Of a stretch of 64,000 nucleotides of DNA, positions 16,799-21,970 are shown in pieces. The notes beneath the pieces are model-generated. The model saw only the letters and a program-made list of their open reading frames with translations. It was not told where the DNA came from and searched no databases. The stretch lies in NCBI RefSeq assembly GCF_004114615.1, contig NZ_CP035300.1, positions 496,001-560,000 on the forward strand. Direction: 5' to 3'. Within the stretch, counting starts at the first letter, position 1; each line of letters starts with the position of its first letter. The position numbers and the translations under genes were made by a program. The stretch comes from Dyella sp. M7H15-1. Its GTDB lineage: Bacteria > Pseudomonadota > Gammaproteobacteria > Xanthomonadales > Rhodanobacteraceae.

Positions 16799-17428
16799 AT
16801 GAAGACCGTATATTTGGCGAGTATTCAATCTGAAGAACATCCAAGGATCATAGGCTGTCAAAAGCGGACGGTGGTCGAGGAGGTGTCGACAGACGATCCA
16901 CTTGTCGGCAAGGTTGCCGCTGCCATAGGGGTGGAATGGCAGAAAAAAGGCGGAAATCCCAACAGATATAAACACACATACCAATGCTCCGGAGATGCAT
17001 GGACGCTGGAAGATGAGGGCGCTGAAGTTGCCAGGGATTTAGGAAAACCAGGAAGTCGTAAAAAACTCCGGGCCGACCAATATCAGAAAATCTTCGTTGC
17101 GCGGTATGCGGATGAAGACGAAGCAATTGCCATCATGGTCATAGAGATGAGGCGAGAAGACGATAACTATAAAGACGACAGACCACCTGGCCGAGAATAT
17201 CTGTACATCCGGTGGCTGCTTGCAAGCCCCATCAAGCGAGGGGGCGGCTCCGCACTTGTCGCGCAGGCAAAAGTGGCTTCTGCCATACATTCAGGGGGCG
17301 ATCTTCGCGTGGATTCAGCTGGGGCGGCGGCTGGATGGTATGAAAAACAGGCATTTAAAGTTCTTTATGCCGCGGCACACCACTTCAATGGCGATTGTGG
17401 CTGCAAATGCATGGCCTGGGGAAGATGA
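16799..17428 (+). CDS. Hypothetical protein with GNAT-like C-terminus
   Basis: The frame encodes 209 residues. A central acidic region and IRWLLASPIKRGGGSALV are followed by GWYEKQAFKVLY, which resembles the late strand-helix of GNAT acetyltransferases (neighbouring Y and F near the C-terminus). Key acetyl-CoA motif A (Q/RxxGxG/A) is only loosely represented by KRGGGSA. The C-terminus, CGCKCMAW, is cysteine-rich. Base composition is more AT-rich than the neighbours, suggesting acquisition. It is divergent from the tautomerase gene. No function is assigned. Confidence 0.55.
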   Translation: MKTVYLASIQSEEHPRIIGCQKRTVVEEVSTDDPLVGKVAAAIGVEWQKKGGNPNRYKHTYQCSGDAWTLEDEGAEVARDLGKPGSRKKLRADQYQKIFVARYADEDEAIAIMVIEMRREDDNYKDDRPPGREYLYIRWLLASPIKRGGGSALVAQAKVASAIHSGGDLRVDSAGAAAGWYEKQAFKVLYAAAHHFNGDCGCKCMAWGR

Positions 17429-17779
17429 GCGTGTTGCGAGTGTGGCCTGCCGCCGGTCAACAGTGTGTGATTCTGGGGCGGTGGTGTATTGCCGCAATGT
17501 GTCGCTACCTGCGCTTGCGCAAAGCGCCGGCATTCCGGCGCATAAGCGCAATCCGGCCTCCATGAGTGAAACAGACGCCGGCTAGTTGCTCAATCTGCAG
17601 GGTCAGTCGATGGACGACCTTGCCACCGAGTGGTGACGGCCTTTGCAGGCATTGTCGCGGCGCCGGGCGAGATGCGCGTGACATGAGCGATCAAACCCAA
17701 CGCAATGACACCGTCTGGCAACGCAAGCATGCTACCGAACACCCTTGAAGCAAGTCATGCCTTTCCCATCGATAGCCAT
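17429..17779. other. Intergenic region with no recognised feature
   Basis: About 350 bases contain only short, unconvincing frames. A stretch near 17585-17620 could be a gene remnant, but no family is recognisable. Confidence 0.4.
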
Positions 17780-18211
17780 CTATCGCCGGTCAATGGAATA
17801 CCTTCCTGGTCCACTCAGGCACAACAGTAGCAATCCGCCAGCAATGCTGAAATTCTTGTAGAAATTGATCATCACATCGATCCGTGCGCTCGGGTTGTCG
17901 TCCACCAGCCAGTAGCGGTGTCCGAGCATTGCGGTGACCAGCGTATAGATCGCAAGCAACAGGGCTAATGGGCGAGTGTAGAAACCAAGCAGGATGGCGA
18001 TGCCAACCACGAATTCCATGATCAGTGCAATGGCTGCTGCGAGTGTGGGAAGCGGCAATCCCACGGCTTCCATGTATGCTTCGGTAGCTGCGAAATGGAT
18101 AAATTTGTCCCAGCCAAAAATCAGGAACAGTGACATCAGGAATATGCGGGCAAGCAGGAGTGCCTCATCCTTGCGATGCTCGAACAAGGTGTACCGCGGG
18201 ATGTATCGCAT
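17780..18211 (-). CDS. DoxX-family membrane protein
   Basis: ATG 18211 lies 7 bases after an aaggag site and was preferred over ATG 18217, which is too close to it. The 143-residue product has four predicted membrane helices: ARIFLMSLFLIFGWDKF, LAAAIALIMEFVVGIAILLG, PLALLLAIYTLVTAML, and a final one around FSIAGGLLLLCL. The order and the FGWDKF motif fit the DoxX/DoxD group. Such proteins occur in inner membranes and are linked to redox or thiosulfate metabolism in some hosts. It is monocistronic as far as seen. Confidence 0.88.
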   Translation of the reverse strand: MRYIPRYTLFEHRKDEALLLARIFLMSLFLIFGWDKFIHFAATEAYMEAVGLPLPTLAAAIALIMEFVVGIAILLGFYTRPLALLLAIYTLVTAMLGHRYWLVDDNPSARIDVMINFYKNFSIAGGLLLLCLSGPGRYSIDRR

Positions 18212-18501
18212 GGCCATTCTCCTTAGGAGGGAGCGCTACAGGCCACGCGTCCGGCCACTCCTCAGACTTCGCGCCGGGCGCGTTGCTGGTGCTTACTATG
18301 AACCTAATGGGGGCTGCCTTCCAAGTGGCATAGTTTTCGCGTTGCGCGGTGCAGCGTGCATCGATGATTTGCTGCAAAAAAAATTAATCATCTCATGCGC
18401 AAGCTCGAAACCTTCGGGCTTGCGCCCTCGCTACTCATCTCATCCCTCGCCGCTTGATCGACGCAGTAGCATGAATGCGGTCAATTGGCGCTTTCAATCA
18501 C

Positions 18502-18588
18502 TTACGTCAGCATGGCTGTCAGGGTGGACACGCAGATCACGACGCAGGCGGCGAAAAAGCTGTTGAGCATCAGGGTTTCGAATTTCAT
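18502..18588 (-). CDS. 28-residue hydrophobic peptide
   Basis: A short frame encodes MKFETLMLNSFFAACVVICV and eight further residues; it has a good ggagaa site 6 bases before the ATG. The peptide is a single hydrophobic helix with two cysteines and could be a small membrane protein. It lies 243 bases after the graspetide ligase gene on the same strand. It is shorter than any known RiPP ligase substrate in this family, so it is listed as a possible small protein without assigned function. Confidence 0.45.
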   Translation of the reverse strand: MKFETLMLNSFFAACVVICVSTLTAMLT

Positions 18589-18831
18589 GATGGTTCTCCG
18601 AAGTAAGGAAGCAAGGCTTTCGCTGGATATACAGCAAAGCCTGTGCCAACTGGGGCGATCCTTTGCAAGCTGCATTCCAGAGCCATTTGTCGACGTGGTC
18701 GAAAATGCCTGGGTTTGTCCGCGGACAGTTGTTTGCGCTGTCCGGACAGGGCACGGACATGGCGCGAACAGGGAGCGAAGGTTGCAGAGTCTGGAGTGTC
18801 GCCTGATATCCGCGACAGCCTGGTTGGCGGA

Positions 18832-19926
18832 TTATTCCAGCGTAAAAAGCTGTCTATCCGGTGTGAGCTTTCCGGCTCTTTCCTTAAGTTGGGCATAGGC
18901 ATCGGAAGCCCGAAACGCTTTCATCGATACGGCTTTCAAGCCGTCGATACGGAAGTCCTGCCGTCCGCTGGCAAGCATTGCCGTCATGGCTTGCAGCATT
19001 GGATAGGCCGGCAACATGTCTTCCACGAACAGGAATTGGCCAGCCTGATTCACTTCCAGAAAATGGTAATCACCATGCCGGTCCACGACCAGGTCAATGC
19101 AACCGAAGACGAGACCAAGGTCGTGCATCAGCGCGCGTAATTTGTTTTCCATGAAAGCAGGCAGCGTGATGGCCTCGGCAACCAGTTCCGGATCGCCGCT
19201 ATGCGGTCGCCAGTCGACGAACCCGCCGCTGGAAGCCTTGCGCAGGCATAGCGCGAACAGGTGTTGTCCCATGACCGTAACGCGAATATCGCAGGACTTG
19301 TCGATATAACGCTGGTAGATGCCGGGGCAGACAGCGATGGCGTCCGCAGGAAGGTCGCTGCGCTCATCCAGCAGGGTGACACCCACAGCATGCTTCTTGC
19401 CGGTTTCATCGTCTTCCCATTGGTGAATCATGAAACTCTTGAAGATGATTCGCCCCCATTTTTTCCGCAGCGTATCCACTTCGTCGACATGGGTCGTCAC
19501 CACTGTTTCAGGAAATGGCAAGCCGAGCCGACGGCAAGCGCTTAGCTGGGCGAGTTTGTTTTCGGCACGTTGTGCCGCGGGCAGGGGGTTGATCCACAAT
19601 GCATCGTGGTAGCTGTTGGCCAGGCCAAAAAGGTTGCGCTGAAATAGCTTCCATTCCAAGCCTGCAAACGCTTCGTCGGCTTCCGCACAGGTGGGCTGTG
19701 GATCGTGCAGGCGCCGGTTCCAGGCTGCGCTGATAGGGGTGTGGCGGGTGGTTGCGTCGAAGAAGTTTTCGCGATCGGCGTCGATATGGAACGCGTAATG
19801 AAAACCAGGCTTCGCCTGCAATGAAGGTGTCCAGGCGGCGTGGATACCTTGTTGCTCCAGTGCCCATGCCAGGGCGCACGCATGCGGGTCGGTATCGGGC
19901 GCAAGTATGAGTACGCTGTGTTGCAT
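18832..19926 (-). CDS. ATP-grasp ligase, graspetide (microviridin-type) maturase
   Basis: ATG 19926 follows aaggagagg; a longer frame to 19962 runs into the attenuator. The 364-residue protein has the ATP-grasp layout: an N-terminal domain with FLEVNQ-type magnesium site late in the chain (HYFLEVNQAGQFLFVE region near 300), ATP-binding RIIFKSFMIHQ near 170, CDIRVTVMGQ near 230, and GCIDLVVD near 290. This matches MvdC/MvdD-like ligases that join Asp/Glu side chains to Thr/Ser/Lys in a precursor peptide. Directly upstream is a short gene with a matching precursor. No acetyltransferase or ABC transporter lies nearby. The assignment is good; ring pattern is unknown. Confidence 0.85.
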   Translation of the reverse strand: MQHSVLILAPDTDPHACALAWALEQQGIHAAWTPSLQAKPGFHYAFHIDADRENFFDATTRHTPISAAWNRRLHDPQPTCAEADEAFAGLEWKLFQRNLFGLANSYHDALWINPLPAAQRAENKLAQLSACRRLGLPFPETVVTTHVDEVDTLRKKWGRIIFKSFMIHQWEDDETGKKHAVGVTLLDERSDLPADAIAVCPGIYQRYIDKSCDIRVTVMGQHLFALCLRKASSGGFVDWRPHSGDPELVAEAITLPAFMENKLRALMHDLGLVFGCIDLVVDRHGDYHFLEVNQAGQFLFVEDMLPAYPMLQAMTAMLASGRQDFRIDGLKAVSMKAFRASDAYAQLKERAGKLTPDRQLFTLE

Positions 19927-19944
19927 GACCTCTCCTTCAAGCCG

Positions 19945-19979
19945 AAAAAAAACGCCCCGCAAGTGCGGGGCGCATTTTT
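19945..19979 (-). terminator. Attenuator/terminator between graspetide precursor and ligase
   Basis: Read on the minus strand, an 8-base GC-rich stem (cgccccgc and gcggggcg, loop of 4) is followed by eight T. It lies 13 bases after the precursor stop and 18 bases before the ligase ATG. Such placement is common in peptide natural-product operons and would give more precursor than enzyme. Confidence 0.8.
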
Positions 19980-19992
19980 CCAGCGATGGGTA

Positions 19993-20169
19993 TTATCCGC
20001 CGAAAATGCCGAACTCTGGTTCGGGATGGGTTGGGTTGGTGGTGATCGTCAGAAACAAACCTTCCTCGCTCTGTTCATCGACAGCCTGGGTGACTTCAAT
20101 GGCGGTGATGCGAGCAAAAGCACGGGGTGTTGTCGATATCGCGTTGGACTTGGAAGCATAGCTGTGCAT
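19993..20169 (-). CDS. Graspetide precursor peptide
   Basis: This 58-residue frame starts at ATG 20169 with aaggag 8 bases upstream. The leader contains PRAFARITAIE (residues 15-25), which resembles the PFFARFL helix recognised by microviridin-type ligases. An acidic linker (DEQSEEG) precedes a C-terminal core, TITTNPTHPEPEFGIFGG (residues 41-58). The core has four Thr and two Glu, the residues joined by ester bonds in this family. The only ATP-grasp gene in the window follows immediately. The core differs from the microviridin TxKYPSDxE pattern. The core boundary and links are inference. Confidence 0.85.
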   Translation of the reverse strand: MHSYASKSNAISTTPRAFARITAIEVTQAVDEQSEEGLFLTITTNPTHPEPEFGIFGG

Positions 20170-20917
20170 AGCTTGAACTCCTTAAGGTAATCACACGAAT
20201 GTCTCTCGTAGGGGATGCGCGGGAGACTTTTCAAGTCTACGTGTGTTTCGATGGTAGAGCTGTCGAGAGCGTGTGACGATACCCGCAAAGGTCAGCAGGA
20301 ATTCACTTCTGTGGATGTCGTGTGCTCAGGTCAATGCTATCCCTTGATCAGTAGCGGGGTTGTTGGCGATACGTCGGCAGGCATGGGGATTGGCGAAAAC
20401 GCAACGCTTATCGCGCGCGATACATCTCGATTCGTATCGCGCATTATTCGATGTTGCGATGGCATATGACGTGTCGGAACGCGTGTTACGCATGCGCGTT
20501 CGCCACACAAAAAATAGCGATGCAAAGCACTGTTTTATCGCAAGCTTTTGCGGACGCAATCTTCACGACTTCTGCACATGTTTGTCTGCATGCTCGAGTA
20601 AACACGTCGAGTGAATTGAGCTTTCGTGTTGACTGGATTAGGGGAATCCAAAGTGGCTTGGGGGAGCCGCATGCAAAATCACTATTGATTGCCTTGACTG
20701 TTGGCGCACAAGCGTCCGGTGGAGAAGGCATTAGTCAGAATGGATTTATCATTGTTTGGTTCTCTTCCCCTTGGGGATGCGGGAGAGGGCAACGACAGGG
20801 GTCTCACTGCGAGTGCTTTCGCTGCTCGTGTGTGGGTAAGTTGTAGTTGTAAGTGCAAACGGCTACCGGATGGTCCGGGGCTGTAACTGTCTGCTATTGC
20901 TTCTGGGGAGAATTGCA
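20170..20917. promoter_or_regulatory. Divergent intergenic region, graspetide operon and secreted protein
   Basis: About 750 bases with lower GC content separate the precursor gene from the plus-strand gene at 20918. A small inverted repeat (agactt-ttc-aagtct, 20224-20238) lies 55 bases before the precursor start and could be an operator. Frames inside are short and lack family features, so no gene is called. Confidence 0.4.
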
Positions 20918-21970
20918 ATGCAAGCAAAGAAACTTGTGTTCGTGGCTGGTCTTGTAAGCGCCGCCCTCGTTCCTGCTGTTTTTGCGGCGCCATCCGCGAA
21001 CGTCTATGGATCGCCATCAAATCAACAGGTGGGGCCGATCGAAGCGCTGGCGCGTCAGGCTTGGCGTGAAGATATCGCACAGATTGTCGCGCCGTCGGAA
21101 GGTTGTTACCACGCTTCCTATCCGAGCATTGTCTGGCAACAGGTTGCGTGTCGGACCGCTTCGGCAAACCATGTGCATCCGGTGCCTCACTACTATCTTT
21201 TTGGCTCGCCGATGACCGCGGGCAATGGCAATGACTACACCATTCAGACGGGTTCGAACCTGATCACGAAGGCCGTCGGTAGCTTCCCAACCTTTTCAGG
21301 CGAAACATCCGAAAAGAGTGTTGGGGTGGCGGCGTACGGTGATGGCGGCATCCTTGGCACGAATGAGTATTCGTTGCAGATGAATACACAATTCACGTCC
21401 ACCACGACGGCTTGCAAGAACCATTCCGGTTGCACGGTGTGGCAGCAGGCTGTGTATGGCACAGACTATGATGTGAAGGGTGAAGGGTCCGTCTTTTGGC
21501 AAGACTGGCTGATCGGTTACGGCAGCAGCCGTTGCCCGAGCGGGTTTGGGAGCGATGGTGCGGGTGACTGCTACAAGAACAGCAGCCTGACCCAGCTTGC
21601 AGATATTTCTCCGGCAGACCTGGCTGGCGTTACGATGACGATAACCGTAGCGACGGGTGGCAACGATGTGGTCACGCTCGCTTATAACGGCGATGCCTAC
21701 AGCGCAAGTCAGAGTGACAGCACCCTGGACATCGCGTCGGTGATGAACACTCTCGAATACCAAATTGTCGGTGATGCTGGCGGTTCGGAAGCGGAGTTCA
21801 ATAATGGCGTCTCCGCCACAGTGAAAGTGGCGGTGACCGACGGTTCCACCAGCACTCCGTCCTGCGTGGCCGACTCCGGCACCACCGGCGAAAGCGTCAA
21901 TCTGAACCTGGGTAACTGTACCGCTTTGGGAGGCACGAGCCCGTCGATCAGCTTCACCGAATCGAACTGA
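20918..21970 (+). CDS. Secreted protein of unknown function
   Basis: ATG 20918 with ggggag upstream gives 350 residues with a clear signal peptide (KKLVFVAGLVSAALVPAVFAA). The mature part is rich in Ser, Thr, Gly and Asn with several Cys (CYHAS, TACKNHSGC, RCPSGFGSDGAGDCY, SCVADSG, GNCTALGG). These probably form disulfides in a beta-rich extracellular fold. No catalytic motif was recognised. It is divergent from the graspetide operon and ends at a good terminator. It may be secreted or surface-bound. A link to the graspetide is only positional. Confidence 0.75.
   Translation: MQAKKLVFVAGLVSAALVPAVFAAPSANVYGSPSNQQVGPIEALARQAWREDIAQIVAPSEGCYHASYPSIVWQQVACRTASANHVHPVPHYYLFGSPMTAGNGNDYTIQTGSNLITKAVGSFPTFSGETSEKSVGVAAYGDGGILGTNEYSLQMNTQFTSTTTACKNHSGCTVWQQAVYGTDYDVKGEGSVFWQDWLIGYGSSRCPSGFGSDGAGDCYKNSSLTQLADISPADLAGVTMTITVATGGNDVVTLAYNGDAYSASQSDSTLDIASVMNTLEYQIVGDAGGSEAEFNNGVSATVKVAVTDGSTSTPSCVADSGTTGESVNLNLGNCTALGGTSPSISFTESN

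Follow-up and report, generated by a model that had tools for sequence, protein, structure and literature searches.

The described graspetides that most resemble the system reported here are thatisin, fuscimiditide, plesiocin and the microviridins. The system is a two-gene unit of about 1.3 kb in Dyella sp. M7H15-1, made of a short precursor gene and an ATP-grasp ligase gene. It lies in a window of 64,000 nucleotides (positions 496001-560000 of the 3.52-Mb genome), and all coordinates below are positions in that window. A first-pass annotation had proposed a graspetide locus here, an interpretation that our analysis supports. We consider it highly probable that the pair is a minimal graspetide cassette, in which the ligase would staple the core of the precursor via two esters, likely as a nested stem-loop.

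Lysobacter makes thatisin, whose signature we take to be a THAT core, THATG..GDDP. Thatisin-type (group 16) ligases of Lysobacter and Luteimonas share about 39-43% identity with that of the window, and their leaders carry R[P][L/F]AR..AREL at the position of the window's RAFAR..AIEV; the core there is DTTHATGPNGDDPGDPD, preceded by a Gly-Gly pair, whereas the window has TxxT..EPE. In one thatisin-like locus (L054), an HlyD protein and a C39-peptidase ABC transporter stand just upstream, which the window locus does not have. Transporters of this kind reportedly accompany group 16 (PMC13097080). Fuscimiditide and plesiocin have one ligase and two esters per unit, as predicted for the window. Fuscimiditide also shares two Thr, two acidic acceptors and a leader recognition segment, RPFG, but its spacing is different and its acceptors are Asp instead of Glu, and plesiocin has repeats, unlike the window precursor. 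The microviridins (MdnB/MdnC, MvdC/MvdD) have the same ligase fold and, in the leader segment, the same F-A-R; they use two ligases where the window has one, and the window core is not TxKYPSDxE and has no Lys, hence no lactam.

A survey of 2021 reportedly distinguished 24 graspetide groups. A survey of 2026 lists 43 groups and 21,584 predicted graspetides (PMC13097080), a size that makes it likely that our loci are in its tables, so this clade may already carry a published group number. Groups 27, 28 and 35 consist of ligase and precursor only, group 27 with many candidate phyla and group 35 often with long repetitive precursors (PMC13097080); of these three, group 28 is the only one whose description does not speak against the window clade. 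In the literature searched, as far as its text was available, the sole paper naming both graspetide and Dyella concerns a Dyella lanthipeptide, and we found no description of the core consensus, of the missing Gly-Gly site and transporter, or of the clade. The cassette appears to represent one graspetide group, that of Dyella, Luteibacter, Oleiagrimonas and Pinirhizobacter, rather than a system of a new kind.

Conservation of the precursor, its ligase and the intergenic hairpin

Precursor, hairpin and ligase all lie on the minus strand:

20232-20241, minus: upstream element CGTAGACTTG, a possible promoter or operator, 72 bases before the precursor ATG
20178-20183, minus: precursor ribosome site AAGGAG, 8 bases before the ATG
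19993-20169, minus: precursor gene, 58 residues plus stop (ATG at 20169, stop at 19995-19993)
20092-20124, minus: leader recognition segment RAFARITAIEV, residues 16-26 (R16, F18, A19, R20 and A23 invariant in 14 of 14 precursors)
20014-20055, minus: predicted core FLTITTNPTHPEPE, residues 39-52, with predicted donors Thr41 and Thr44 and predicted acceptors Glu50 and Glu52
19996-20013, minus: hydrophobic tail at the C terminus, FGIFGG, residues 53-58 (in relatives similar without being invariant)
19952-19973, minus: G+C-rich intergenic stem-loop, followed by T7 at 19951-19945
19932-19937, minus: ligase ribosome site AAGGAG, preceding the ligase ATG
18832-19926, minus: graspetide-type ATP-grasp ligase, 364 residues plus stop (ATG at 19926), containing FLEVNQ

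The 58-residue frame, its ribosome site, the hairpin and the ATP-grasp gene with FLEVNQ are thus where the first-pass annotation had put them. The extent it gave the pair (18502..20169) was too wide: the ligase stops at 18832, and 18502-18831 lies outside the pair and holds a separate 28-codon frame. Its remark that the precursor falls short of the usual gene-calling length is questionable, because the usual minimum of gene finders lies under 58 codons.

The 58-codon frame is a genuine precursor gene. Among 233 genomes of the host's family, 42 have ligase matches at E 1e-20 or better, and 14 full-length ligases, the window's included, are at least 59% identical to the window's. Each of these 14 has a precursor of 50-58 residues located 58-88 bases before the aligned ligase start. 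A profile built from the 14 precursor copies (57 positions) matched 18 of the 233 genomes; 15 matches are strong (8.5e-22 or better), every one adjoining an orthologous ligase, and the other five, spread over four genomes, are weak hits (E 2.4e-5 to 0.004) that end at profile position 46 or earlier, short of the EPE end. At E 0.01 these genomes contain neither an orphan precursor nor an orthologous ligase without one. The frame, whose loss beside related ATP-grasp genes had been named in advance as a result that would speak against a graspetide, is therefore kept beside 15 of 15 orthologous ligases. The fifteenth is in G116 (L099 1227-1832), where the precursor is intact, with His at position 16 and an unchanged core pattern, and the ligase frame stops early; a short frame near the contig end follows, which in our opinion resembles a transposase start.

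Since it precedes a terminator-like hairpin, the 58-codon frame has the position expected of an attenuator leader frame, and it could in principle be that or a chance frame, the ligase acting on a substrate encoded elsewhere. We regard this as extremely improbable, because the protein sequence is conserved beyond its position. Identity to the window copy is 46-65%; R16, F18, A19, R20, A23, F39, T44, E50, P51 and E52 are invariant in the 14 aligned precursors, position 41 holds Thr in 12 of them and Ser in the other two, and the codons at invariant residues vary. Nonsynonymous divergence (dN) was below synonymous divergence (dS) in all eight pairs printed, of 91 possible, the narrowest being L008/L012 (0.18 vs 0.28). 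No relative of the precursor was found in viral contigs at E 1e-3.

All 14 ortholog loci have a stem of 9-14 pairs between the two genes (no more than 4 of 500 dinucleotide shuffles do as well), and so do 13 of 15 other loci (no more than 3 of 500), the exceptions being L021 and L022; the count leaves out L027, a copy of L026. Hairpin sequences differ between clades. The first nine bases past the stem include seven T in the window and one to six in the other orthologs, so that only the window's hairpin can firmly be called a terminator; elsewhere the hairpin may protect the precursor message.

The enzyme is an ATP-grasp ligase of the graspetide synthetase type, both by sequence models and by predicted fold, for which solved graspetide synthetases match better than RimK among the structures listed. 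RimK-type models match the ligase too, more weakly, a RimK-like PHROGs model gives a weak match, and RimK structures come next in the fold list; the enzyme might then modify the peptide otherwise, by adding amino acids to Glu or by joining another molecule to it. Such an activity is very unlikely, sequence and fold both placing the listed graspetide synthetases above RimK, and a core with two Thr and two Glu behind a recognition leader being what a cyclase requires. The window's genome has no second ligase at E up to 1. Among 72,556 plasmid records, 69 have ligase matches, all below 60% identity, the ten listed being at 33% or less.

Core, leader and the proposed product

The core pattern F[L/I][T/S]xxT-x(3-5)-EPE fits all 14 orthologs, and none of these cores contains a Lys. 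The first-pass annotation had stressed four Thr and two Glu in the core; both Glu are conserved, and of the Thr only Thr41 and Thr44, not Thr43 or Thr47. It was correct in separating this core from TxKYPSDxE. Neither that motif nor the broader TxKxPSD-like core with a Lys lactam, which defines the microviridins, occurs in any of the 14, and the thatisin arrangement, THATG..GDDP behind a Gly-Gly leader end, is likewise absent from them, the ligases forming separate clades. What the locus does have are two of the features that define graspetides in general: a ligase of the synthetase type, and a short adjoining precursor whose recognition leader is followed by a core of donors (Ser, Thr or Lys) and acceptors (Asp or Glu) kept across relatives. 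The third, ester or amide bonds that the ligase makes between side chains, is predicted here.

The leader also fits published recognition motifs, in line with its proposed closeness to the microviridin recognition helix. RAFAR..A matches PFFARFL of microviridin and, roughly, the motif Phhx(1,2)h (PMC8939145), and also fits RPFG, the tetrapeptide by which the fuscimiditide precursor is recognised (PMC13003496). Precursors beside less similar ligases mostly have R-[P]-[F/L/M]-[A/G]-R at the equivalent position, in a survey where the leader motif was itself the search pattern and rows without it were recorded as 'None'.

With two conserved donors and two conserved acceptors, two esters are predicted. 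We propose that the ligase binds the RAFAR...A segment and uses ATP to phosphorylate Glu50 and Glu52 of the core, after which Thr44 and Thr41 would attack to form two side-chain esters with the loss of 36 Da. The rings would most likely be nested, Thr44-Glu50 within Thr41-Glu52, a preference based on analogy with fuscimiditide, whose two Thr and two Asp form such rings (Thr7-Asp18 inside Thr3-Asp22; PMC12291112). The hairpin would yield precursor transcript in excess of ligase transcript. The mature bicycle would probably inhibit a serine protease, using the Thr44-Glu50 loop (NPTHP in the window, DPDRP in several relatives) as contact site; its protease target is a guess.

The spacing of TxxT and ExE permits crossed rings (Thr41-Glu50, Thr44-Glu52) as well as nested ones. 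The rings of microviridin interlock (PMC13097080), and Gra-5, with two conserved acceptors, showed a single dehydration in E. coli (PMC9576775), so that a graspetide with crossed esters or with one ester has to be weighed. We hold this to be unlikely, though less so than the other alternatives, given that two donors and two acceptors are retained in 14 of 14 orthologs and that the fuscimiditide rings are nested.

Several observations weigh against the nested two-ester cassette as we propose it. The bonds are predicted from sequence and modelled fold, and the donors were chosen by conservation alone. Nine of the 14 cores have acidic loop residues (seven have two and two have one; the window core has none), making a further acceptor possible in those relatives. 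The precursor has no match among Pfam, NCBIfam or PHROGs models, and the ligase reaches none of the curated NCBIfam cut-offs (TIGR04187, 162 bits vs 350). Relatives do not keep the strong run of T that follows the hairpin, and no protease gene is linked to the cassette. The data show the gene pair, its conservation, the predicted fold and the enzyme family, from which we infer the bond type, the bond pattern and the role of the hairpin.

Ligase tree, distribution and upstream element

The ligase tree comprises 56 of the 73 ligase frames gathered; the 17 omitted are 13 exact duplicates and, by choice, L061, L065, L099 and L112, while L032-L035, L037-L041 and L068-L072 were never entered. The 14 TxxT..EPE ligases form one branch (support 100/100), as do nine thatisin-like ligases (100/99). 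Seven core labels, our own motif classes of which 'other' and 'none found' are mixed bags, require 10 changes on the tree against a shuffled mean of 36.1. Four of the five named classes have a single origin, and SxxSG..PD needs three changes. The tree program flags a meeting of long branches (L029 and two others with L062 and three others). The other ligase clades retain the leader segment and have different cores, including the thatisin-like type in Lysobacter.

The named close relatives (10 records, ligase identity 59-67%) belong to Dyella, Luteibacter, Oleiagrimonas and Pinirhizobacter, and no equally close ortholog outside the family was found in 398 genomes of the order or in a pattern-based scan of 84,980 species genomes. 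Further two-gene graspetide-like loci in the family (L016, L018, L019, L023, L024, L100, L103, L105) have a similar leader segment and cores of types such as SxxSG..PD, TxxT..LDYD and ERIGTTTG, and one genome of the host's genus (G070) has four ligase matches.

Ten of the 14 orthologs carry the upstream element, [C/T][G/T]TAG[T/A][A/C]TC, 65-94 bases upstream of the ATG. Inspection by eye shows near matches in the window (one mismatch), L005 and L007 but not in L010, and nowhere in the whole window does the exact pattern occur. A looser pattern precedes five of 49 other rows, two of which copy ortholog loci and two each other. Sigma-70 consensus promoters in 17700-20950 numbered 0, against 1.9 expected.

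Surroundings, export and biological meaning

We compared 25 loci (the window with 6 kb, 10 ortholog loci, one a 4.6-kb contig, and 14 others; flanks of about 5 kb), taking frames of at least 80 codons and reporting families present in at least three loci. By this measure the window shares only the ligase and its antisense frames with the compared loci, the other families being confined to small subsets such as three Luteibacter loci or the Lysobacter group. Of nine neighbouring frames scanned, five could be assigned, to DoxX, a cupin, a creatininase, an Mrr-type nuclease and a YncE-like propeller, and the remaining four match no Pfam model. None of the nine is a recognisable transporter, as the first-pass annotation had held, nor was a methyltransferase recognised near the cassette, a further difference from the fuscimiditide and plesiocin systems. 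Its claim that an acetyltransferase is also missing is less certain: by eye a 209-residue frame at 16799-17428 (plus strand), one of the four without Pfam assignment, seems GNAT-like. That frame matches no Pfam or NCBIfam model up to E 10 and has only a 0.088 match in the PDB, and an acetyltransferase does not recur at related loci.

Other neighbours are recorded for completeness. The DoxX frame (17780-18217, minus strand), 0.6 kb downstream of the ligase, is not among the families common to related loci and scores 45.5 bits, below the cut-off of 80, against NCBIfam HvfX (maturation proteins of copper-binding ribosomally synthesized and post-translationally modified peptides). Divergent from the precursor, 20921-21970 (plus strand) encodes a protein of about 349 residues that begins with a signal-like stretch and matches no Pfam or NCBIfam model. 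The 28-codon frame (18502-18588, minus strand) has a ribosome site and encodes the hydrophobic peptide MKFETLMLNSFFAACVVICVSTLTAMLT. Its family, without Pfam, NCBIfam or PHROGs match, occurs in 122 of the 233 family genomes (E 0.001), with 2-7 copies per genome in 16 Dyella-genus genomes (E 0.1), sometimes paired about 95-243 bases apart; such tandem small membrane peptides presumably recall type I toxins. We rejected it as a third part of the cassette, since the family is multi-copy and only four listed copies (the window, G070 and two in G076:C31) adjoin a graspetide locus.

The cassette lacks both a Gly-Gly leader site and an adjoining peptidase-transporter. The single C39 match in the window's genome is in a 277-codon frame, too short for a C39 peptidase-transporter, while nine of 15 ortholog genomes have C39 matches elsewhere in transporter-sized frames (11 matches, 704-770 codons). 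Such distant transporters could process these peptides in trans, which weighs against a strong reading of the missing local transporter. The lack of Gly-Gly site and adjoining transporter raises the improbable idea that the graspetide stays inside the cell, perhaps with its leader still on, regulating one of the producer's own proteases; if true, this would be a new role for graspetides.

With two genes in about 1.3 kb, the unit lends itself readily to expression, and short cores that combine two acceptors with loops of 3-5 residues could find use as bicyclic ligands for proteases. The common leader segment across clades with wholly different cores offers a clean case of ligase-core co-evolution, and the cassette poses the question of how such graspetides shed their leader and exit the cell.
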